From positions 1-57,053 of IMG/VR virus record IMGVR_UViG_3300015206_000001: a DNA stretch of 57,053 nt; one strand, 5' to 3'. The notes under the pieces are model-generated. The model ran no database searches. It saw only the letters and a list, made by a program, of their open reading frames with translations, and was not told where the DNA came from. This document shows, one piece after another, positions 17,885 to 56,698 of this stretch (positions within the stretch are counted from its first letter, which is position 1; each line of letters begins with the position of its first letter). The position numbers and the translations under genes are program-made. The DNA comes from a virus.

Positions 17885-19402
17885 TTACGCGGTCGCGAGC
17901 GGTGCGGAGGATCCGTTGGTGGTCGACTGCGACTGTAGGAACGCGGTGACGTTGGCCGCGAAGATGATGAGCTGATCGACCAGGAACAGCGGCAGATAGG
18001 TATCGCAGCGCTTGGGGTTGGTCGCATTGGCCTGCACCACCAGGTTGGCGGCGAACGCCGCAGCGTTCTGCGCCACACCAAAGTTCACCAGATCGTTATA
18101 GGCGTGGATCAACGTCGCCTGGATATCGGTCGGCGTCACGATGGTCGACACCGCACCGGGATTGTCGGCGGCAAAAGCCTTGCGGCCGTGCTGGGCCTGC
18201 ACCTGGGTACGAAGATAACGCAGCGCGAACATGCCCTGCGCCATCGCGTTGATTTCCATGAAGGTCTGATCGAGCGCGCCTTCGGGATCGGTCTTGTAGG
18301 TCGTGACCATGCGGTCGATCACTACGTTGCCGGAGGTATTGACCGTGAACGCGGCAATGCCGGCGGAATACAGCGCCTGGCGATCCGAGGTCTGCCACCA
18401 TTTGGTGCGATCGAACGGCGGCAGCACGTTCTGCAGCACGATCGTCTGCATCGGCAAAGATAGATTCGGCGTGGCCGACAGATTGGCGACTTCGGCGCCG
18501 CCGAGTGCGGCGGCCCATTCCCAGGGGGGCGTCCGGAAGAACTGCACGCCCATGATGGTTTCGTGCTGGTTGTTCCGCGTGGCGCCTAGCGTGGTCTGCG
18601 TCGACAGATTGCCGGCATTGACCGTGGTGTGATGGCCATAGATCTGTTCGGCCGACGACCAGCGGCCGTTCTGATCATTCAACAGCGTCTGGAACGCGCC
18701 CAGCGACGTCGCGTCGCCATAGGGCGAAGCGATCCAGTCGAACGCCACACTGCCGAGATTGGCCAGCGGCGTGGTCAGGGCCGGCACGCCGGTGCCGCCG
18801 GTCAAGGCAACGATGGTGGCGTTCGCTGCGGCCAGCGCGTTCGGCTGGTTGGTGACCAGTGATACCGCGATGTTGTTGCCGAGCGTGCCGAGATGCTTCG
18901 CCACAAGGTCCATCTTGGCAGCCGTGGTGCCGTCGACCGTTGCAACGATCGGCAGGTTGGCCGCATTCACGGCCGCAACCGCATTGGCGCAGATGGCAGT
19001 CGCCGCGTCGGACGCGTTGACCTGCCAGGTGATGAGGCGCCCCATCACCTCCAGCAGCGCGGTGCCTGTCACGCCAGGCGCTGTGAAAAGGACGCTGCCC
19101 GCCGCCGCCGCGCCGGACGGATCCGCAATCGGGAGCGCCCAGATCTCGTCGCCGACGCTCGCATTGGCCAGGGCGACGTCGTACATGCCGACCAGCATCG
19201 AATTGGCGCCGAACTGCTTGATCGCATCAGCTTCCGATTGAATCGGACCGTAAGGCACGCCGGCCGCGGCAACGCCCGACGACGTCATCTGGCCGACCAG
19301 CAGACACACGCTCGGTGAATTCGACGGCGTGCCGCCCGAGTTGAACTCGAACCAGGTAAAGGGAACGAGCGTGTTCGGCGGCACGTTGTTGAACTGGACC
19401 AT
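17885..19402 (-). CDS. Contractile tail sheath protein
   Basis: 505 residues. The opening (VQFNNVPPNTLVPFTWFEFN, VCLLVGQMTSSG, ADAIKQFGANSMLVGMYDVA) and later RTPPWEWAAALGGAEVAN, VIDRMVTTYKTDPEGA and FMEINAMAQGMFALRYLR belong to the Mu gpL-type sheath family. This identifies the phage as a myovirus. The final ~20 residues are a Ser/Thr-rich tail. Confidence 0.92.
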   Translation of the reverse strand: MVQFNNVPPNTLVPFTWFEFNSGGTPSNSPSVCLLVGQMTSSGVAAAGVPYGPIQSEADAIKQFGANSMLVGMYDVALANASVGDEIWALPIADPSGAAAAGSVLFTAPGVTGTALLEVMGRLITWQVNASDAATAICANAVAAVNAANLPIVATVDGTTAAKMDLVAKHLGTLGNNIAVSLVTNQPNALAAANATIVALTGGTGVPALTTPLANLGSVAFDWIASPYGDATSLGAFQTLLNDQNGRWSSAEQIYGHHTTVNAGNLSTQTTLGATRNNQHETIMGVQFFRTPPWEWAAALGGAEVANLSATPNLSLPMQTIVLQNVLPPFDRTKWWQTSDRQALYSAGIAAFTVNTSGNVVIDRMVTTYKTDPEGALDQTFMEINAMAQGMFALRYLRTQVQAQHGRKAFAADNPGAVSTIVTPTDIQATLIHAYNDLVNFGVAQNAAAFAANLVVQANATNPKRCDTYLPLFLVDQLIIFAANVTAFLQSQSTTNGSSAPLATA

Positions 19403-19440: not shown

Positions 19441-19680
19441 TCAGGATTTGGAAGCGCGCGATCGCGGCGCGGGCGCCTCTTCCGCGATCGAGGCCTCGGC
19501 GATTTCTTTCCGCTCGACAGGTCCCGTCGCTTCGACCACGTCGCCGTCGCGAAGCCGGCGTACCCAATACATGGTCTCGGGTTTCCATTCGCCTTCCGCC
19601 TTCAACGACCTGTGCGTATCGGGATCCGGCACTACCAAGCCATCGGCTGCAGGCTTGACGAAGATATTCTTGACGATCAT
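19441..19680 (-). CDS. DUF2635 family protein (Mu gp38-like)
   Basis: 79 residues. IFVKPAADGLVVPDPDT and EWKPETMYWVRRLRDGDVVE are the DUF2635 signature; the last 25 residues are Ala/Glu/Arg-rich. In Mu-like phages this small gene always sits just before the sheath, as here; its function is unknown. The domain occurs a second time in this genome, fused to a ParA-type ATPase at 54571-55548. Confidence 0.85.
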   Translation of the reverse strand: MIVKNIFVKPAADGLVVPDPDTHRSLKAEGEWKPETMYWVRRLRDGDVVEATGPVERKEIAEASIAEEAPAPRSRASKS

Positions 19681-19684
19681 TCGA

Positions 19685-20479
19685 TCATTCCTGTTGCGGA
19701 TTCAGATTGTCGACTTCGGCCAGTAAATTCGGCGCCGAAGGCAGCGTGCCGTCGGGCGCCGCGGCGCTGACATTCAAGGTCACGGTTTCCAGCGGCGTGG
19801 CGATCGGGGCGCCGGGGAAGGAAGGCTCGGCAGCCAATCCCTTCAATACGCCGTACGCATAGCTGTCGGTTGGGAGCGCCTCGGCGAAGCCGCGCAACGG
19901 CTGCGGAAACAGATCAAAGCCGGTTGCTTGCGAGAAAGGTGCAAAATCATATTGGTCTTCATTGACCTCGACCTTCCAGGTCAGGGTGCGATTGGCGAGC
20001 CTGATGCCCTCTTCCGAGGTCCGATGCACCATCGAATGCGGCTCGTGAATCCGGCTCTTGGAGACATTGCGCCAGATCAGGCCGGTCGGTCCGTAGTTCA
20101 GCACGAAGCCGATCTGAGCGGCCATCAAGTCCAGCGAGGCTTCCAGCTCCGCGTCGGTCTGCGGCAGCATCACGTCGAAAACAGACGGGTCGGCCTCGCG
20201 CGCGATCTTCACGACGACCGACAGTTCGAAACACAGATCCACGGTCAGAAAATAAGGCGCCCCGCCGCGCTTCTGTCCGGCAATCGCGGAGTCGTTTTCG
20301 GTGTAGACCGCGATGATCGGCCGCGCTTCGTCCGCTCTGAAGTCATCGATCGGGTCGATGCGCGAATCCAGCACATGGGTACCGGCGATGGTCGGAAAGT
20401 TGTTCTTGATGCGCACTGCCGCGGTCGGTCGCAATGCCTCGATCGTGGCTAGACGCAGCGCCAGGCGCGCCAGCGACAT
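19685..20479 (-). CDS. Putative tail terminator / tail completion protein
   Basis: 264 residues. It lies between the head-tail connector and DUF2635 genes, where Mu has gp37 and lambda has its tail terminator. The pattern of an N-terminal helix (RLALRLATIEAL), strands (ARPIIAVYTEND, FLTVDLCFELSVVV) and a closing ANRTLTWKVEVNEDQYD strand fits a terminator fold. Ends just upstream of the DUF2635 start. Family assignment is by position and fold pattern. Confidence 0.55.
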   Translation of the reverse strand: MSLARLALRLATIEALRPTAAVRIKNNFPTIAGTHVLDSRIDPIDDFRADEARPIIAVYTENDSAIAGQKRGGAPYFLTVDLCFELSVVVKIAREADPSVFDVMLPQTDAELEASLDLMAAQIGFVLNYGPTGLIWRNVSKSRIHEPHSMVHRTSEEGIRLANRTLTWKVEVNEDQYDFAPFSQATGFDLFPQPLRGFAEALPTDSYAYGVLKGLAAEPSFPGAPIATPLETVTLNVSAAAPDGTLPSAPNLLAEVDNLNPQQE

Positions 20480-36508: not shown

Positions 36509-38398
36509 TCAGGCCGCCTTGCGCTTTTTGGCAGGTGTCTTTTTGGCGGCCTTCTTCGGCGCGGTTTTCTTCGAAACTGGCTTCTTCTTGTGATCCGAGG
36601 GACCTAGCTTTGCTTTGCCTTTCGGAGGACCGTCATAACCCTTGGCGCGCAGCTGAAGCGGAAGCCAACCGGTCGGCGGGACGTTCTCCAAAGCGAATGC
36701 GACGATTTCCGGCTTGGTTTTCTTGGCCTGCTGTCGCGCCAGATCCGGTCCGAGTGATTCCTCGATCGCCTTGAGAGAGAGAAGCTTGCTCACGCCCGCG
36801 AAATAGTCCTTGGCGTCGAAGGCGCCACGTGCAGCAGCGTTGAATGCCTTAGCATCGATCGCATCGACGATCACCATTGCGCCCTCGTGAGGATCGTTGT
36901 GATCGTGAGATGAATGCTGGAAATCGAGCGCATTGGCTGCGAGCTGGGTTAGAAGCGTGATGCGCTCGGCCGGCTTGAGCCTTGTCGCGAGCGGCAATGC
37001 GCGTTTCATGTCTTCAGCGCCAAGCAGACCGCGCCGATCGCCGCGACCGCCGAGACCACTAACATGCACTTTCACCCCGCAATTGCTGTAGCAGCCTGCG
37101 CCGGCGAGCAGAACGGAAAGCGCTAGCTGCTCGTCCATAATCAGCGCGGTCGACGCGGCTTTGGTCAGCTGGATCGAAAGTCGATGCAACAAGGCCTGAG
37201 AGATATCCTCTTCGTCGGCCTCTGCCGGCGTCTCAGGCTTGGCTGGCTTGGCTTTCGACGACGTGGGCGAGGCGTTGGCTTCTGCCGGTCGCTTCACCCC
37301 ATAAAGAACGACCAGACGGCCGTCTTCGATATCGACGATGCAGCCGGTCTGCTTCTTTTTCTTAGTCTCGAAGCTGCGGGGCCGAACGGCGCTCTCGATG
37401 AGATCGAGATCCTTTTCCAGCTTTTCCTTTTTGTAATCCGCTTCAGCACTATAATCTTCACCGTCCTCGAGTTGCTCGATCTCGGCGCGGAGCTTCATGG
37501 CGCGCTCTTGCTCATCATCCTCGTACAAGAGCTCTTTGGGCTGCGATTGCGACCAGAAGCGCGCGCCATGTGGAAGGTCAGATTCGATCTCGGCCCAGCC
37601 CCAGCCGTCGGCTTTGAGTTCCTCGCACTTCACATCGAGCGCCCGACGCGCCATCTGCTTCAATAGCGTTTCATCGCTGATGATATGCGAGTTGCCGAAT
37701 AGATCTTCAGTGACGATCCCGCCGGCGGAACGGTAGGCCTCGGCACCGACATAGCCGAGCAGCTGTGCGACGTCGTCGTCTATGGCATCAGCGCCAAGCT
37801 CTCGCTTGACGTAGCTTTCAAAGATCGCTCCGCCCTTCGAGAGTTTGTCGTAGATCTTGTCCTGCGTTTTGTGGTCAAGACCAAGCGTGAACGCCTTAGC
37901 GACGTCAGCCTTGATCTCTCCGTTGCGCCACGCTGCGCGGATCTTCGGCGATAGCCGGCCGAGTGCGAGCGCTTGGCGCACTTCCTTTTCCGACATGCCG
38001 TATTGCAGCGCGATCTCTTCGGTCGTCTTGCCATGCGCCTCGAGTCGCGCGAAGGCCTCATACTGATCGACGGGATGCAGCTGCTGCGCTGTGATTGCGG
38101 TCGTCAGCGAAAACTCAAAAGCCTTGGTCTCGTCGACCTCATGTAGCGTACAGCCGATCGGTTGTGAGCTGTCCTCGCCGTAGATCATATGGAAGGCCGC
38201 CAGGCGACGGTTGCCGTTGGAGACGGAGAAAAAGAACTCATCGAACCGCTTGATGATCAGATCCTCGATCTGGCCATTGGCGTGCAGGTTCGCGGCAAGC
38301 GCCTCGATCCCGTCCAGCCGGCCGGCAACGCGGGCATTGATGCCGGCGCCGTCATCCTGGCCGAACTTCAGTCGATTCAGTGGAACATCGATATGCAT
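36509..38398 (-). CDS. ParB/RepB/Spo0J-like DNA-binding protein, large
   Basis: 629 residues from ATG at 38398 (GAGGAG seven bases upstream). The N-terminus has a ParB fold (LNRLKFGQDDGAGINARV, QIEDLIIKRFDEFFFSVSNG, NRRLAAFHMI), followed by the HTH region (TTEEIALQYGMSEKEVRQAL, LGRLSPKIRAAWRNGEI). The C-terminal half is longer than usual and ends in a Lys/Ala/Pro-rich basic tail. It could bind a centromere-like site or regulate/spread on phage DNA. The genome also encodes a ParA-type ATPase (54571-55548), but not next to it. Confidence 0.8.
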   Translation of the reverse strand: MHIDVPLNRLKFGQDDGAGINARVAGRLDGIEALAANLHANGQIEDLIIKRFDEFFFSVSNGNRRLAAFHMIYGEDSSQPIGCTLHEVDETKAFEFSLTTAITAQQLHPVDQYEAFARLEAHGKTTEEIALQYGMSEKEVRQALALGRLSPKIRAAWRNGEIKADVAKAFTLGLDHKTQDKIYDKLSKGGAIFESYVKRELGADAIDDDVAQLLGYVGAEAYRSAGGIVTEDLFGNSHIISDETLLKQMARRALDVKCEELKADGWGWAEIESDLPHGARFWSQSQPKELLYEDDEQERAMKLRAEIEQLEDGEDYSAEADYKKEKLEKDLDLIESAVRPRSFETKKKKQTGCIVDIEDGRLVVLYGVKRPAEANASPTSSKAKPAKPETPAEADEEDISQALLHRLSIQLTKAASTALIMDEQLALSVLLAGAGCYSNCGVKVHVSGLGGRGDRRGLLGAEDMKRALPLATRLKPAERITLLTQLAANALDFQHSSHDHNDPHEGAMVIVDAIDAKAFNAAARGAFDAKDYFAGVSKLLSLKAIEESLGPDLARQQAKKTKPEIVAFALENVPPTGWLPLQLRAKGYDGPPKGKAKLGPSDHKKKPVSKKTAPKKAAKKTPAKKRKAA

Positions 38399-38409
38399 GT
38401 TCAATCTCC

Positions 38410-42174: not shown

Positions 42175-42473
42175 TTGCGATCCTTCTCAAGTTCCGCAAT
42201 CCCGAAATCCTTCTGGCGCTCATCGAGAATGGCGTCGCCGCGCGCGAAGGTCGCCTGCTCGAGGACCTTCATCACCGCGTCGTGGCTTTCGCCGCCAAAC
42301 AGCACCAGCTTGAGGTTGACGCCGAACTTGCTCATGTCGACGTGCGTGGTGTTGCCGTCGCGCATGTGTTCCCAGGCGCCTGCTGGAAGGCCAATGACGA
42401 CAAGCGGAACGCCATCGCCGGTACCGTTCGGCGAATAGGCAAAGACCAGCCGCTGCTCGATGTTGTCAGGCAT
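42171..42473 (-). CDS. Hypothetical protein
   Basis: 100 residues, ATG after GGAGATGGCGG. GDGVPLVVIGLPAGAWEHMR and FGVNLKLVLFGGESHDAVMK suggest an alpha/beta fold. No family recognised with confidence; in the early accessory operon. Confidence 0.6.
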   Translation of the reverse strand: MPDNIEQRLVFAYSPNGTGDGVPLVVIGLPAGAWEHMRDGNTTHVDMSKFGVNLKLVLFGGESHDAVMKVLEQATFARGDAILDERQKDFGIAELEKDRK

Positions 42474-43479
42474 CCGCCATCTCCTCCGTCTCAGCTTCCA
42501 GTCCCCAGCGATCCCAGCCCGATCGCGCGCGCCTCGCGTTCAATTCGATCTTCGGCAGTGTCGGGAAATAGCGCTCAATGATCTCGTAGAAAGCATCTGG
42601 CTTTTGCGAGTGCGCTGCGACTGGTGCAGAGACGAGGCTTGGAAACTGGGTTCCCATCGCCGGCGCCGGGACGTCGCCCTTGGTGCCGACGAGCAGCAGT
42701 TCGTGCTGGTTGCGAAACCAGTAGCCGGTGCCGATCTTATCCTTGGCCCAGATGCAATGGGATTTGTAGGCAAAGCCCCACGCCGCCGTGACGCGCAGCG
42801 CATCGGGCAACATCGGAACAGTCGCCCACAGAAACAGTACGCAATCGGCGGCTGCGATATCCTGCACCGGCCTGGCGCAGATCGCGTCGGTGTCCGACGT
42901 CGGATAATGATTGTCCGCTGCGCGGTCCATGCCGGTTTCGCGGCTATAGACTTCGAAGCGCCACTCAGGGTCTGCGTAAATAACGCCGTAGCGTTTGTCC
43001 GGTAGCGCTTGCTGCTTGGAAGCCAGCTCGCGCTCCCGTGTCGCGCGATGTTCCTTCTTGTCGCCGTGCGCGGCCGCACTGATCGGGTCAACCAAGATGG
43101 CGCCGCCACTGCGGATTTTTTCTCGCGCGCCTTCTGCGAGGTGCTCAAAGGCGTCATCATCTAGTGCGGCAGCCTTCTGGGCTCTGGAAGACAGCTTTTT
43201 GTCGACGCCGATTTCCTTCAGCGTGACCCGCTCGGAATTCTCATCCTTTGGCTTGCGGCCTTCTGCTATCTGGCCGGTTTGCTTGGCGGCCGCTAGTAGA
43301 ATGCCCAACCGGCGCTCGGCGCGCATCTGGAAGATCGTGGCATCAGCGAGCAGCGCCTTGTCCTGGATCTGCCGGGCATAGAGCTTGACGTGCTCGAGCT
43401 CGTCGCGGATCGCCATCACCTGGTCGACGCGGATGGCGTCTGCCAATGCAGTGCGGGCGCGATCGTAGGCGGCGAGCAT
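42466..43479 (-). CDS. MT-A70 family N6-adenine methyltransferase
   Basis: 337 residues from ATG at 43479. The catalytic motif is DPEW (residues 170-173, in GVIYADPEWRFE), a variant of DPPW. SDTDAICARPVQDI, DCVLFLWATVPMLPDALRV, GFAYKSHCIWAKDKIGTGYW and FRNQHELLLVGTKGD are family motifs. The N-terminal 150 residues are helical with an LKEIGVDKKLSSRAQ segment resembling DNA-recognition helices. It would methylate adenines in phage DNA, protecting against restriction or timing early events. Confidence 0.85.
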   Translation of the reverse strand: MLAAYDRARTALADAIRVDQVMAIRDELEHVKLYARQIQDKALLADATIFQMRAERRLGILLAAAKQTGQIAEGRKPKDENSERVTLKEIGVDKKLSSRAQKAAALDDDAFEHLAEGAREKIRSGGAILVDPISAAAHGDKKEHRATRERELASKQQALPDKRYGVIYADPEWRFEVYSRETGMDRAADNHYPTSDTDAICARPVQDIAAADCVLFLWATVPMLPDALRVTAAWGFAYKSHCIWAKDKIGTGYWFRNQHELLLVGTKGDVPAPAMGTQFPSLVSAPVAAHSQKPDAFYEIIERYFPTLPKIELNARRARSGWDRWGLEAETEEMADA

Positions 43480-43481
43480 GG

Positions 43482-43778
43482 TCACTTGGCTGTCTCCAAT
43501 TTGCGAGACAGCTTCTTGATCAGCTTTTGCTGCAGCACCTCGAGTCTGGAGGATCCCTTGATCCGCACAGCCTCGGCAGTGGATTCGCGCCACATGTCTT
43601 CAAGGGCAAAGTGATGGCGGATGTTTTTGCGGCCTAGGCTGGAGATCTCGCGCTGATATTCTGGATCGACGATGAGCGAGCCGATCGACAGCCATTCCAG
43701 TTTCGGAAGCTTGCCGAAGGTCGCCGGCACTGCGAGCTTGGCATAGCCCTTGGTTTCGATCGTGCGCGGTTGCGTCAT
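43482..43778 (-). CDS. Short ParB/Srx-like N-terminal fragment
   Basis: 98 residues. LEWLSIGSLIVDPEYQREIS and LGRKNIRHHFALEDMW resemble the first motif of ParB/sulfiredoxin-like domains, but the usual DGQHR motif that should follow is missing and the rest is a basic helix. It may be a remnant or a shortened DNA-binding version. Start overlaps the upstream gene (ATGA). Confidence 0.5.
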   Translation of the reverse strand: MTQPRTIETKGYAKLAVPATFGKLPKLEWLSIGSLIVDPEYQREISSLGRKNIRHHFALEDMWRESTAEAVRIKGSSRLEVLQQKLIKKLSRKLETAK

Positions 43779-44797
43779 GACGCTAACCTCGGGGGAAAGC
43801 CATTATGCTCGACGCCATCGAGCTTTCTGCCGGCTGTCTTTTTGCCGACGTTCACCAGCGCGTAGTCTTCAATCTGATGGAAGCTGAAGCTGCGACCGTC
43901 GAAATAGAAGCGGTCGCGTTTGATCTGGTGGTTATCCTTCAAAGCGACCGGCTGGTGCTGGCCCCATTGCTTGAAGAAGAAGGCAACGCCGGCGGCCGCG
44001 CACTGATCGCGAAGGCCGCGCGCCCAGGCCGGATGCATCGGTCGTGCCGAGGGACCGGATTCGCCGCCGACGATCACCCAATGGATCTGACCGGAATACA
44101 GCGAACGCCGGGCATCGAGTGATCCAAGCAGCGGTTCACACGACAGAAACCGAACTGAAGCGGGCGTGTAGCGCAGATCTTCTTCGCGCTCGTTCAGCTC
44201 CGCCTGGCGCTCAGCCGAGACACCGAGCCAGACATTCGGAAGGGGAAGCATTGGCGTGCAACCGCCAGTAGGAACTTTGCGGACCTGATGTTCGTAGGCA
44301 ATGTGCTGATCGTAGTTCTCGTCATGCGCCGGATAGTGGCTATTCAAGAGCGAAAGCGCCTGACGGTGAACGCGATCCTCTAGCGCCCATCTGTCCTGGC
44401 TGCAGTAATCCCGCATCCGATTCGCGCGCTTCGTCAGCACCTGGAACGTATGCTGCGGGCAAAGTGCCATTGCGGCGAAGATCTGATCGAGCATTTCGTC
44501 GGTAACAAAATCGGCGAACAGATCGGTCATCGAGCAGACGAAAATCATCCGAGACTTTTTCCAGCGCAGCGGCTGGGTCAGCATCTCCTGGTCGACAAAG
44601 ATCTCAATGTCGTCGCGATGGCCGGGCTTGAACGGTAGGCCGGTGCCGAGCCGCTTATTGAAGCCTTCCGCGTAACAATGCTCGCAGCCGGTGGTGGCGT
44701 GCTCGCAATGCCAGCCGACCTTGCCGGTCTTCTTGTTGCGCGCGCGGATCGGATTCCAGGTCGCGTCGGTCCATTCGATGAGGGATTTATCGGCCAT
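43775..44797 (-). CDS. Phage Gp37/Gp68 family (DUF5131) protein
   Basis: 340 residues from ATG at 44797 (TGATG overlap). SLIEWTDATWNPI opens it; Cys31, Cys38 and Cys41 (CEHATTGCEHCYAE) form a radical-SAM-like cluster motif; MIFVCSMTDLFADFV, HTFQVLTKRANRM, PNVWLGVSAE and IHWVIVGGESGPSARPMHPA are family motifs. The family is widespread in phages and mobile elements; function unproven, possibly nucleic-acid modification or repair using an Fe-S cluster. Confidence 0.85.
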   Translation of the reverse strand: MADKSLIEWTDATWNPIRARNKKTGKVGWHCEHATTGCEHCYAEGFNKRLGTGLPFKPGHRDDIEIFVDQEMLTQPLRWKKSRMIFVCSMTDLFADFVTDEMLDQIFAAMALCPQHTFQVLTKRANRMRDYCSQDRWALEDRVHRQALSLLNSHYPAHDENYDQHIAYEHQVRKVPTGGCTPMLPLPNVWLGVSAERQAELNEREEDLRYTPASVRFLSCEPLLGSLDARRSLYSGQIHWVIVGGESGPSARPMHPAWARGLRDQCAAAGVAFFFKQWGQHQPVALKDNHQIKRDRFYFDGRSFSFHQIEDYALVNVGKKTAGRKLDGVEHNGFPPRLAS

Positions 44798-44994
44798 CAG
44801 CGCACCGGTCGCTTGATCTGCGGACGCTCGCCAAACCAGCGGCATTCCATGCAGACCGGGAATTCGAAGCCGTCGTCGACGGCGCAAAACACGTTCATGC
44901 CACAACAGGTGCATACGAACTCGATGCTCCCGTCGGCATTCTTCTGGCGAACCTGAGGCGCTGGAAGGTTGGCGCTGAAAGGGAGCACGCTCAC
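44797..44994 (-). CDS. Small zinc-ribbon-like protein
   Basis: 65 residues from GTG at 44994 overlapping the upstream TGA (GTGA), with GGAGG eight bases before. CTCCGMNVFCAVDDG and FPVCMECRWFGE hold two Cys pairs typical of a zinc ribbon. The longer open frame to 45141 overlaps the upstream gene and is not coding-like. Confidence 0.55.
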   Translation of the reverse strand: MSVLPFSANLPAPQVRQKNADGSIEFVCTCCGMNVFCAVDDGFEFPVCMECRWFGERPQIKRPVR

Positions 44995-52407: not shown

Positions 52408-52772
52408 GCCAACCGCTCACCCTCGCTGAGGCTGCCGGCCGCTTGCACAAAAGCAAGCGCTGGCTGCAGGACTGGCTGGCTCAAAATCCCGTGGACCAGG
52501 ACGGAAGGCCCTTCTGGTGCCAGCTTGGCCGGTCTAGGCTTTTCCGGGAGTGCGACATCGACCGGATCCTGGCAGCGAGTAACACGCCATGCCCCTCAAA
52601 CTCTTCCCGCCCCGTCCCGGTAAAACGCCGAACTGGACGATCCGCGGCAACTACATGCGGATCGCCGTTGACCGATCTTCGGGAACTGCTAAACGATCCG
52701 CAGCTCACCTTGAGCTCAAGCGCATCGAAAGAGCCATCGAACTTGGTGAGTTTCCGCCAAAGCCGCAGGTAA
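52404..52772 (+). CDS. Excisionase-like HTH protein
   Basis: 122 residues. LTLAEAAGRLHKSKRWLQDW and LGRSRLFRECDIDRILAA form the MerR/AlpA-type winged helix seen in excisionases and torA-type directionality factors. The last ~60 residues are read in another frame over the first 184 bp of the integrase gene. Directionality of integration versus excision would depend on it. Under the same operator-controlled promoter as integrase. Confidence 0.7.
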   Translation: MSQPLTLAEAAGRLHKSKRWLQDWLAQNPVDQDGRPFWCQLGRSRLFRECDIDRILAASNTPCPSNSSRPVPVKRRTGRSAATTCGSPLTDLRELLNDPQLTLSSSASKEPSNLVSFRQSRR

Positions 52773-53680
52773 AGGAAACCGAGGCCACCTTCGCTTCCGC
52801 AACCGTCACCTATTTGAGAACCGGCGGATCGCGCCGCGGCATCAAGAAGCTCGTCCGGCATTTCGGCGAGATGCCGCTCGACGATATCGACCAGGCCGCG
52901 ATCGACAGAGCCGCGATCGCGCTTTACCCCGACGTCACGGCCGCGACCCGCAACAGCTACGTCTATACGCCGGTCTCGGCCGTGCTGCATCGCGCCGGCA
53001 TCAACATCACGGTCAAGCGACCCAAGGGCCACAAGGGCAACGCGCGCACGCTCTTCCTTTTGCCGCCGGATGCGTTTGCCATCATCCGCGCGGCGGACGC
53101 GATCGACGCCGAGATGGGGCGGCTGTTGCGATTCCTGCTCTATACCGGTTGCCGGATCGGCGAGGCACTGGCGCTGAAATGGGAACGGGTCAGCCTGACC
53201 GAGCGGCTCGCCTATATCGAAACCTCGAAGAACGGCGACCCGCGAACCGTCAAGCTACGCGAGGAAATATGCGCACTGCTGGAGCCGCACCAGAAGCCCG
53301 CTGGGAAGGTGTTTCGCTTTCACCAGGGCGGACACCGGAATTTCCTGTTCCTCAACGCCAAGGTCACGGCATGCGGTCTGGCGCCCATTCCAAGGCCGAA
53401 GCGCAAAGAGAAGATGGTGATCCCGCCGTATCGCTACGGCTGGGTGACGTTCCACACCTTCTGCCACACATGGGCGACGTGGATGCGGCGCTACGGCGGC
53501 GCCGATACGCTTGGCCTGGTCGCAACCGGCCGCTGGCGCGACGAGCGCTCGGCGCGGCGCTATACCCACACGGCCGCATCGTCCGAATGGGACCGCACGG
53601 ATCTGCTGCCGTCGATGGGAGAGCGTGGGAGCAACGTGGGAGAGACGGCCGAAACGCCGAAAACGAAGGTAAATCAATAG
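52589..53680 (+). CDS. int: Tyrosine-family integrase
   Basis: 363 residues. N-terminal arm/core-binding part (LFPPRPGKTPNWTIRGNYMR) then the catalytic domain: Arg189 (TGCRIGEALAL), Lys214, His289, Trp316 (GRW) and Tyr325 (RRYTH). The box usually reading HxxR has HTFCH, so Cys292 (codon TGC, 53462-53464) stands where Arg II is expected. This establishes an integrating temperate phage. The attachment site is probably in the adjacent non-coding stretch. Confidence 0.85.
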   Translation: MPLKLFPPRPGKTPNWTIRGNYMRIAVDRSSGTAKRSAAHLELKRIERAIELGEFPPKPQVKETEATFASATVTYLRTGGSRRGIKKLVRHFGEMPLDDIDQAAIDRAAIALYPDVTAATRNSYVYTPVSAVLHRAGINITVKRPKGHKGNARTLFLLPPDAFAIIRAADAIDAEMGRLLRFLLYTGCRIGEALALKWERVSLTERLAYIETSKNGDPRTVKLREEICALLEPHQKPAGKVFRFHQGGHRNFLFLNAKVTACGLAPIPRPKRKEKMVIPPYRYGWVTFHTFCHTWATWMRRYGGADTLGLVATGRWRDERSARRYTHTAASSEWDRTDLLPSMGERGSNVGETAETPKTKVNQ

Positions 53681-54462: not shown

Positions 54463-54499
54463 AAAAAAAGCCCGGGACCTTTCGGCCACCGGGTTTTTA
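54463..54499. terminator. Bidirectional terminator
   Basis: CCCGG/CCGGG core with flanking A- and T-runs (AAAAAAAG before, GGGTTTTTAG after) forms a stem of about 10 bp. It has a U-tract for RNA coming from either side and separates the rightward lysogeny arm from the leftward end of the late region. Confidence 0.8.
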
Positions 54500-54570: not shown

Positions 54571-55305
54571 CTATTGGAACGTATCCCTGATCATCTCGCC
54601 CAGGCCGACCTTGTCGAAGCCGGCCGAGCAACGCCCTAGCCATTTCCCAGTCAATCCGCGAAGCGTTTTGCTTCGTCGCTCGCCGGTCACTGGATCAATG
54701 GCGGTCGAGATGAAGTCGACGATCGAGCCCTGCGAGGCCTGTATCGCCTCGCTGGCCGTAGTTTCCAGATGGGGGATTTCGATGGTGATGTTCTGCAGCG
54801 CGCGCAGCGTCGCCGCATATTTGGAGCTATGGTCCCATTCGAAGAACTTGGTTTCGTTGATGTAGTTCTTGACGATGAAATGGCTGACCGATGCTCCGAG
54901 CAGGTTTGTAGCGTCGGCAATCTCGTCCAGCGAAGACAGCGACGGCCCCAGGACATGCAATAGCGCAAGCCGCAGCCGGCCGGCCCGGACATCCTCCAGC
55001 AGCATGGCATCGTCGCAAGCCCGAAGGGTCATGCCGAGCACGCCGGCCGGCAGATCCACGATCGTGACGCCGGCCAGGTTGTCGAACAGCTTCATCTGAT
55101 CGGCAATGTCGGTGACGTTGAGCACCTCGGCCTCGGGATGAAACCGCGCCAAGTCGCCGCGCGGATATTGCCCGTCGACCAGGCGCGCCTTCGGAAAATC
55201 CCGCAGCTCCGGCGATTCCAAGTAGCCCTTGATCGCGCGGCATATTGTGGTCTTGCCGACACCGCCCTTCTCGGCGCCGACGACGATAACGAGTGGCGTA
55301 GTCAT
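54571..55305 (-). CDS. ParA-type ATPase, internal-start product
   Basis: 244 residues from ATG at 55305, 8 bases after AAAAGGA, in frame with the fusion above. It begins TTPLVIVVGAEKGGVGKTT, the natural N-terminus of the ATPase family. It would dimerise on ATP and bind DNA or membrane; target unknown. Confidence 0.5.
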   Translation of the reverse strand: MTTPLVIVVGAEKGGVGKTTICRAIKGYLESPELRDFPKARLVDGQYPRGDLARFHPEAEVLNVTDIADQMKLFDNLAGVTIVDLPAGVLGMTLRACDDAMLLEDVRAGRLRLALLHVLGPSLSSLDEIADATNLLGASVSHFIVKNYINETKFFEWDHSSKYAATLRALQNITIEIPHLETTASEAIQASQGSIVDFISTAIDPVTGERRSKTLRGLTGKWLGRCSAGFDKVGLGEMIRDTFQ

Positions 55306-55548
55306 GGAAGAGTCCTTTTGCGGTGGTTTTGAAAATCGTTGGATCTGTCTTTCGAAGGCGCCAAGCTCGAGCGTCCTCATGACCGGCTCAGGCGCCGTAA
55401 CGTCCCCGTCGCGCAACCGCCGGATCCAATAGTTGGCAAGCGGCTTCCACTCGCCCTCTTCGCGAAGAGGCCGAAGCGACACGGGGTCCGGCACGAGCAA
55501 AGGTTTGAGGTCAGCGCCGACGGCCGGCTTGAGAAAGATGGTCTGCAT
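54571..55548 (-). CDS. Fusion of DUF2635 (Mu gp38-like) domain with ParA/MinD-type ATPase
   Basis: 325 residues. Residues 1-~50 (TIFLKPAVGADLKPLLVPDP, EWKPLANYWIRRLRDGDVTA) are a second DUF2635 copy, clearly related to 19441-19680. From Met82 the sequence is a ParA/MinD-type ATPase: deviant Walker A EKGGVGKTT at residues 93-101, GVTIVDLPAGVLGMTLRACD as the switch/Walker B region, and HFIVKNYINETKFFEWD. An internal ATG at 55305 has its own AAAAGGA site, so a separate 244-residue ATPase may also be made. Last gene before a bidirectional terminator. Confidence 0.75.
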   Translation of the reverse strand: MQTIFLKPAVGADLKPLLVPDPVSLRPLREEGEWKPLANYWIRRLRDGDVTAPEPVMRTLELGAFERQIQRFSKPPQKDSSMTTPLVIVVGAEKGGVGKTTICRAIKGYLESPELRDFPKARLVDGQYPRGDLARFHPEAEVLNVTDIADQMKLFDNLAGVTIVDLPAGVLGMTLRACDDAMLLEDVRAGRLRLALLHVLGPSLSSLDEIADATNLLGASVSHFIVKNYINETKFFEWDHSSKYAATLRALQNITIEIPHLETTASEAIQASQGSIVDFISTAIDPVTGERRSKTLRGLTGKWLGRCSAGFDKVGLGEMIRDTFQ

Positions 55549-55629: not shown

Positions 55630-55875
55630 TCAGCTCGTTGGCGCTGGCGAGATATCGAGGAAGTAGAAGCCGCCGAGTTCAAACGCCGCGATCGCATCAG
55701 GGTTAGTAATGCCGAGTGTCAACTCGCCTTGCGGCGTTGCTTGCGACCACGACTTGTTCTCGCCGTTCTCGCCCGTCCATACCGGCATGAATTTTACTTC
55801 GCAGAAGACGTGCCCCGGCGAAGTGTGGACGTGGTGAATGTCCTTACATTGGAACTTGCAACGGACCTTTGACAT
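55630..55875 (-). CDS. Small conserved phage protein
   Basis: 81 residues from ATG at 55875 after AAGGAGAAGACC. KVRCKFQCKDIHHVHTSPGH, KSWSQATPQGELTLGITNPD and FELGGFYFLDISPAP match a small phage protein family known to me only as hypothetical. Spaced by 80 bases from the fusion gene; a CCGCCGGC/GCCGGCGG hairpin (55592-55619) lies between. Confidence 0.65.
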   Translation of the reverse strand: MSKVRCKFQCKDIHHVHTSPGHVFCEVKFMPVWTGENGENKSWSQATPQGELTLGITNPDAIAAFELGGFYFLDISPAPTS

Positions 55876-55916: not shown

Positions 55917-56396
55917 CTAAACGCCTCCTGGCGCCACGTAGCAATAAACGTAATCGCCGCGGCTCAAGAAGATGATGCCGTGACCTGTCGGATTGGACTG
56001 GTCGTATTTCAGCTTGTGGTTCGGTACGACGATCTTGGTGCCGATCGGAACATGCTTGCGGCGCAACGGTTCGTCCGGTCGCGGATCCGTGATGATCGCG
56101 ACATACTTGTCGCCGTCGACCTCGAAAGAGTCGGCCCAATAGGCGTCGGCCTCGCCGCAACACGACACGGCCGGATTGTCCGGCTGCATCAGGGCCTGGT
56201 ACCAGGCGCGCACGTCCTGGTCGGTCGCTTCCCATTGGCCGTAATCGCGGGCGCGCGCGGCATGAACACAAAGCGCAAGGATCACAACAGCGGCAAAGAA
56301 GATCAGTGCACGCTGCCAGTATCGCGCGGTAAGTTGAGATGCCAAAACGATCATGATGATTGCCACCAGAACAGCGAAAGCGATCGCGTTCTTCAT
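55917..56396 (-). CDS. Exported or membrane-anchored protein
   Basis: 159 residues from ATG at 56396, overlapping the upstream stop. Two hydrophobic stretches (AIAFAVLVAIIMIVLASQL, ALIFFAAVVILALCVHAARA) lead into a periplasmic-type domain (DYGQWEATDQDVRAWYQALM, SCCGEADAYWADSFEVDGDK, GDYVYCYVAPGGV) with a Cys pair. Related exported proteins occur in Bradyrhizobium. Possibly a surface or lysis accessory moron. Confidence 0.6.
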   Translation of the reverse strand: MKNAIAFAVLVAIIMIVLASQLTARYWQRALIFFAAVVILALCVHAARARDYGQWEATDQDVRAWYQALMQPDNPAVSCCGEADAYWADSFEVDGDKYVAIITDPRPDEPLRRKHVPIGTKIVVPNHKLKYDQSNPTGHGIIFLSRGDYVYCYVAPGGV

Positions 56397-56698
56397 TGGC
56401 CGAGCTTGGCTTTGATGCCGAGCCAGATCAGCCCGCAGACGCCCGTCACCAGGACCATCACCATCGCCTTCCAACCGGCGCTCTCGACCTGCTCGCTAGC
56501 CTTGCGCCAGCGTCGCAAATGCTGAAAGTCAGCGCGGAGCTCGACGCGATCCTCATCCTCGATGCCGAAAGATGTCAGGATGGTCGATATCGTTCGTAGA
56601 ACGACTTCGTCTGCTTCATTGTTGTGAAGCCGCTTCTGCTCGGCGAGGACTTCCACGACCACGCTTTTCGCCAGGTCCTTGACTTCATCTTCGCGCAT
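56393..56698 (-). CDS. Small protein with C-terminal membrane anchor
   Basis: 101 residues. VVLRTISTILTSFGIEDEDR and FQHLRRWRKASEQVESAGWK then a hydrophobic end (AMVMVLVTGVCGLIWLGIKA) match a DUF6127-like phage protein. Topology (N-in, single pass) is compatible with a pinholin or an exclusion protein. Next to the outer-membrane protein gene. Confidence 0.65.
   Translation of the reverse strand: MREDEVKDLAKSVVVEVLAEQKRLHNNEADEVVLRTISTILTSFGIEDEDRVELRADFQHLRRWRKASEQVESAGWKAMVMVLVTGVCGLIWLGIKAKLGQ

Follow-up and report, generated by a model that had tools for sequence, protein, structure and literature searches.

The small DUF2635 proteins are widespread in myophages and, to our knowledge, without a known role; a narrow search of the openly available literature returned no paper on 'DUF2635'. 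The counterpart in phage Mu, gp38, is given as probably structural but was not resolvable in the virion of that phage (PMC11915804). On the plasmid side, the ATPase StbB is needed to bring copies of R388 to the poles and alters DNA positioning for transfer (PMC3098194). Here we describe a single gene of a Rhizobiales-type phage that joins the tail-region DUF2635 module to a ParA/MinD-like ATPase (Table 1). The window, that is, the whole stretch of DNA analysed, is a contig of 57,053 bases; the fusion is known from one IMG/VR record and one assembly.

Table 1. Coordinates of the fusion gene, its parts and the related genes in the window
Feature	Position	Strand	Details
Fusion ORF, DUF2635 - linker - ParA/MinD-like ATPase	54571..55548	-	325 aa; ATG start, no internal stop
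DUF2635 domain	55396..55548	-	residues 1-51; PF10948, phrog_208, alignment, model
Linker	55306..55395	-	residues 52-81; low-confidence helix in structure model
Internal ATG (55305-55303) and SD-like AAAAGGA (55319-55313)	55303..55319	-	usual start position of the family
ATPase domain	54571..55305	-	residues 82-325 and stop
Deviant Walker A, GAEKGGVGKT	55249..55278	-	residues 91-100
Terminator-like hairpin, GAAA loop and U run	54463..54493	-	3' of fusion gene; z -2.19
Tyrosine integrase	52589..53680	+	convergent with fusion gene
Small gene directly upstream of fusion	55630..55872	-	phrog_6978-like
Gene upstream of fusion	55917..56474	-	homologue of L091 4976-5398, same slot
Small membrane protein	56393..56698	-	phrog_6420; L095 homologue lies near the L095 ATPase
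Tail sheath	17885..19402	-	phrog_165
Second DUF2635 gene	19441..19680	-	between gp37-position gene and sheath; 69.1 bits to PF10948
Gene upstream of second DUF2635	19685..20479	-	Mu gp37 position; phrog_12983

The fusion gene and its two domains

The two ends of the contig (1-142 and 56912-57053) overlap with 140 of 142 bases identical and, once the shared bases are merged, a single gene continues in frame through the join; the genome map is thus probably circular, at about 56.9 kb, although the IMG/VR record is classed as lacking end repeats. The product of the join-spanning gene (about 225 aa) looks like a secreted, possibly outer-membrane beta-barrel-like protein, and its first 172 aa gave no Pfam match better than 0.01. 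Elsewhere in the window, positions 36509-38404 encode a 631-aa protein with a ParB-type HTH (phrog_7783) and no ParB_N match, and genes for an MT-A70 methyltransferase and a DUF5131 protein adjoin each other (42466-43593 and 43775-44914). The fusion gene itself occupies a slot between lysis genes and the integrase, outside the tail operon.

The original prediction of a DUF2635-ParA/MinD fusion was borne out: the frame is open, and alignment and structural model back both domains. The N-terminal region is clearly similar to DUF2635, with a PF10948 score of 41.7 bits over residues 17-51 (gathering threshold 26.6) and a phrog_208 match of 8e-11 across residues 1-52. DUF2635 and ATPase sequences were aligned separately; among 26 DUF2635 sequences, the fused copy retains all invariant and near-invariant columns, with the conserved residues K-P, D-P, L, G, W..RR and D-V all present. 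Modelled alone, it reaches a pLDDT above 90 over residues 1-50, and the codon-position GC of this part (0.65/0.44/0.72) is like that of real genes. No significant match came from a sequence search of the PDB or from Foldseek run with this model.

The second DUF2635 copy that had been proposed is also real and sits in the usual slot just upstream of the sheath gene, a position that is usual for DUF2635 but lies outside the Pfam definition, whereas the fused copy adjoins lysis genes and the integrase. A recent duplication of the tail copy as the source of the fused domain was ruled out: the two are about 52% identical, and the copies of other phages score equally close. Considering that all conserved columns are kept at this low identity, the likely source of the fused domain is another Mu-like tail operon or an old duplication, and constraint on it appears to have lasted.

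Residues 82-325 are, judging by sequence and model, an ATPase of the ParA/MinD superfamily with the SIMIBI fold. The KGGxxK[ST] P-loop carries the signature lysine, and the predicted deviant Walker A proved intact and, in the alignment, invariant across the family except for E93; all 19 family-invariant residues of a 46-sequence alignment are present. In the window protein, Pfam detects no more than the P-loop (CbiA, E 0.059, 13.8 bits, below the cut-off of 25.4), a cut-off that the relatives in loci L004, L102 and L183 pass. In the AlphaFold model of this part, pLDDT exceeds 90 in most blocks; the best PDB match is ParA 3cwq (probability 1.00, E 3e-5), FlhG 4rz2 being another, and the best sequence-profile match is MipZ (4e-4). 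Foldseek against viral models found nothing significant, and no defence family of PADLOC matches the fusion protein. The ATPase part is mildly acidic and has no clear membrane-targeting helix, so that there is no indication of a track along either nucleoid or membrane.

A second start, at 55305, had been proposed as a source of free ATPase. The ATG and its SD-like site are there, with an anti-SD energy of -5.9 kcal/mol versus -2.6 for the outer start; this signal taken alone does not stand out, being equalled by 11% of the in-frame internal ATGs in the genes of the window. The stronger argument is that most ATPases of the family start within a few residues of the position matching Met82, and free ATPase is probably made besides the fusion. 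Another conserved N-terminal extension, of about 57-117 aa and with a Pro-rich end, is found in the lineage of Bradyrhizobium phage BDU-MI-1 (loci L109, L110, L118, L120, L132-L134, L158 and L004), where 9 of 9 examples have a stronger SD at the internal start than at the outer one; these are related sequences and not nine independent events. Extended-plus-free forms of the ATPase may, by this comparison, be a recurrent design.

Distribution of the ATPase family and of DUF2635

Used as single queries, neither the window ATPase nor the whole fusion matched anything in viral contigs, and an alignment query was needed. The alignment-based search identified 72 IMG/VR loci that encode an ATPase of this family; matches on chromosomes numbered several hundred, and the best 80 were retained. 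Among named phages, the family is represented in Bradyrhizobium phages ppBeUSDA76-1 and BDU-MI-1. From these comparisons, the ATPase is a member of a large and common family of late genes in Hyphomicrobiales-type phages. Its members adjoin terminase, portal, capsid, tail or lysis genes: the upstream neighbour is the terminase large subunit in 14 of the 44 phage loci scanned, with capsid or tail proteins in others, and on the downstream side terminase (4) and portal (3) are among the neighbours. A narrow search of the openly available literature returned no paper on ParA-like ATPases of Bradyrhizobium prophages.

L091, a phage contig close to the window in size, has a free ATPase in the corresponding slot, following lysis genes and convergent with a recombinase. 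In the tree, a chromosomal clade is nested within the phage diversity, and the ATPases of L102 and L183 fall in a phage group near that of the window, some branches being not well supported. Nitrobacteraceae and Xanthobacteraceae chromosomes encode a tandem pair of ParA-like ATPases, one of which is 37-41% identical to the phage protein; the second P-loop paralogue, which comes after it, has SPRPxVGKT in place of KGGVGKT (loci L008-L087). By its position in the tree, L008 looks like a prophage copy rather than a chromosomal pair.

A fusion to an ATPase was found in none of the 88 other distinct viral DUF2635 loci (97 rows with duplicates). Nearly all of these lie directly before the sheath gene; in two (L193 and L199) an extra gene stands in between, that of L193 (3343-4182) encoding 279 aa with the motif NPNVFYEAGIAHTLGR and no Pfam match. 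The other viral records with DUF2635 (53) have one copy apiece. Across the Nitrobacteraceae-type family and its order (789 genomes), 28 DUF2635 matches scored above the cut-off, none of them a fusion: an ATPase is absent from the 24 loci kept, and the remaining four frames are too short. Long open frames around some genomic matches (299, 297 and 295 aa) were rejected as fusions, being just open upstream sequence. The fusion, whose recurrence in prophages had been left to be checked, was thus found only in the window and is unique among the loci examined. The two genes are nevertheless neighbours in L102 and L183, where a free ATPase gene directly precedes DUF2635, followed by the sheath; in most phages that have both, the ATPase is free and at least 5 kb (5-7 kb or more) from DUF2635.

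Candidate functions of the fusion protein

The late-operon setting points to a role in assembly, packaging, positioning or lysis timing. We favour, with a probability of about 0.38, a late morphogenesis or positioning ATPase that would be tethered through DUF2635 to tail assembly and would also be made in a free form. The C-terminal part is an orphan ParA/MinD-type ATPase of a family kept in the virion, packaging and lysis operons of Hyphomicrobiales-type phages; late in infection it would most likely act, through ATP-dependent dimerisation, to assemble or place phage DNA or parts of the virion. DUF2635, derived from a Mu-like tail operon and joined to its N-terminus, would hold the ATPase at the tail terminator/sheath stage of assembly, among whose genes DUF2635 is usually encoded, with additional free ATPase coming from the internal start. 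That both products are translated, that ATP is hydrolysed, that the tail is bound and that the role is in assembly or positioning are all predictions from sequence.

This reading is consistent with the intact conserved residues of both domains, the placement of the ATPases beside terminase, capsid, tail and portal genes, the extension with a strong internal SD in the BDU-MI-1 lineage and the presence of a ParB_N protein in only 2 of 29 ATPase-bearing phage records. The gene order ATPase, DUF2635, sheath in L102 and L183 also supports it and lends some independent support to virion positioning, one of the uses proposed originally, which is possible. Counting against it are the single fusion in a single assembly, the lysis-integrase slot, which in the syntenic L091 holds a free ATPase, the distance of 5-7 kb or more between a free ATPase and DUF2635 in most phages with both genes, and the ATPase part itself, for which no nucleoid or membrane track is indicated. 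The further proposal that DUF2635 is a virion-binding tag is unproven, Mu gp38 not being resolved in virions (PMC11915804). On the same grounds, tethering to tail assembly is favoured but hypothetical.

Almost as likely, the fusion is a passenger: recombination would have set a stray DUF2635 in frame upstream of a moron-like ATPase gene, leaving free ATPase from Met82 as the working product and the DUF2635 part idle or a mere leader. The start of most relatives at Met82, with an SD better than the outer one, the free ATPase in the same slot of L091, the nearest relative by synteny, the uniqueness of the fusion and the genes inserted just behind DUF2635 in L193 and L199 would all fit such an origin, which accounts less well for a domain of no recent copying that has nevertheless retained all conserved residues, a normal codon-position GC and a confident fold.

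The tethered reading has a bolder form, which we consider unlikely as a whole: a ParA/MinD positioning ATPase covalently hooked to contractile-tail assembly would have assembling tails as its cargo, with a second, free form from the internal start, and the wider family would be a previously undescribed class of virion-assembly or positioning proteins.

A host-directed or lysogenic-conversion protein is improbable. Its ATPase would compete with the tandem ATPases of the host or with another ParA/MinD-type system, altering the cell cycle or cell organisation, in keeping with the 37-41% identity to one member of the Nitrobacteraceae/Xanthobacteraceae pair and with a slot between lysis genes and integrase, shared with L091, that is typical of cargo genes; many family members, however, reside in head or packaging operons and not in moron slots, and DUF2635 would be left unexplained. 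Still less probable is that DUF2635 serves to pack the ATPase in or on the tail for entry into the next host: nearly all of the 88 other viral loci have DUF2635 within the tail gene cluster, but DUF2635 proteins are only putative virion components (PMC11915804) and no other cargo fusion was found.

It is very doubtful that a sequencing or assembly artefact conceals a stop between two neighbouring genes, a concern raised at the outset. The single record, the disagreement of the contig ends at 2 of 142 overlapping bases and a possible chance adjacency of two genes in one frame speak for it, but the frame is open without any frameshift, and a stop arises from just 12 of the 270 single substitutions that the linker allows; it is these 12, in one assembly, that keep part of the concern alive. 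Finally, plasmid-type partition (ParABS) of a non-integrated prophage, suggested by membership in the ParA superfamily and by the ParB-type HTH protein, is the least probable explanation because neither the window nor 27 of the 29 related records contain ParB_N, the ParB-HTH gene is about 16 kb away and the phage carries an integrase; together with the location of the family in late virion and lysis modules, this weakens the original suggestion of phage DNA partition or lysogen stability.

The fusion and the ATPase-DUF2635-sheath gene order link DUF2635 to the ATPase family and lead to the hypothesis that the ATPase acts at tail or virion assembly; work on virion parts would, if this is true, be unusual for a ParA/MinD ATPase. 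The family of late ATPases merits testing even in the case of a passenger fusion, as a frequent gene of Bradyrhizobium-type phages for which we found no described function.

Comparison with known systems

The N-terminal 51 residues match DUF2635 of the Mu gp38 type in all conserved columns and in a confident fold model, but nearly all other copies examined are small separate genes by the sheath, whereas this one heads an ATPase far from it. The ATPases of ppBeUSDA76-1, BDU-MI-1 and the 72 IMG/VR loci are homologous to that of the window across the whole domain (30-62% identity) and share the late-module site, but lack DUF2635, the BDU-MI-1 type bearing its own extension instead. The chromosomal tandem ATPases, similar as one of them is, differ in being on the chromosome and paired with a second P-loop paralogue. 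With MipZ, ParA, MinD and FlhG, the window ATPase has the SIMIBI fold in common, without a matching partner protein or full-length sequence similarity.

The StbB, MobD and TraL-type ATPases of mobilisable plasmids and VirC1 are likewise ParA/MinD-type P-loop ATPases of mobile elements. In a tblastn search of plasmids, the StbB/MobD/TraL type showed weak similarity to the window ATPase (24-30% identity, E from 1e-6 at best to 1e-2), and very long branches separate them in the tree. These plasmid proteins sit in mobilisation regions with relaxase genes, whereas the neighbours of the window ATPase are lysis, membrane and integrase genes, with no relaxase among the annotated genes (by annotation only). 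StbB serves as an analogy for the window ATPase, not as a family assignment.
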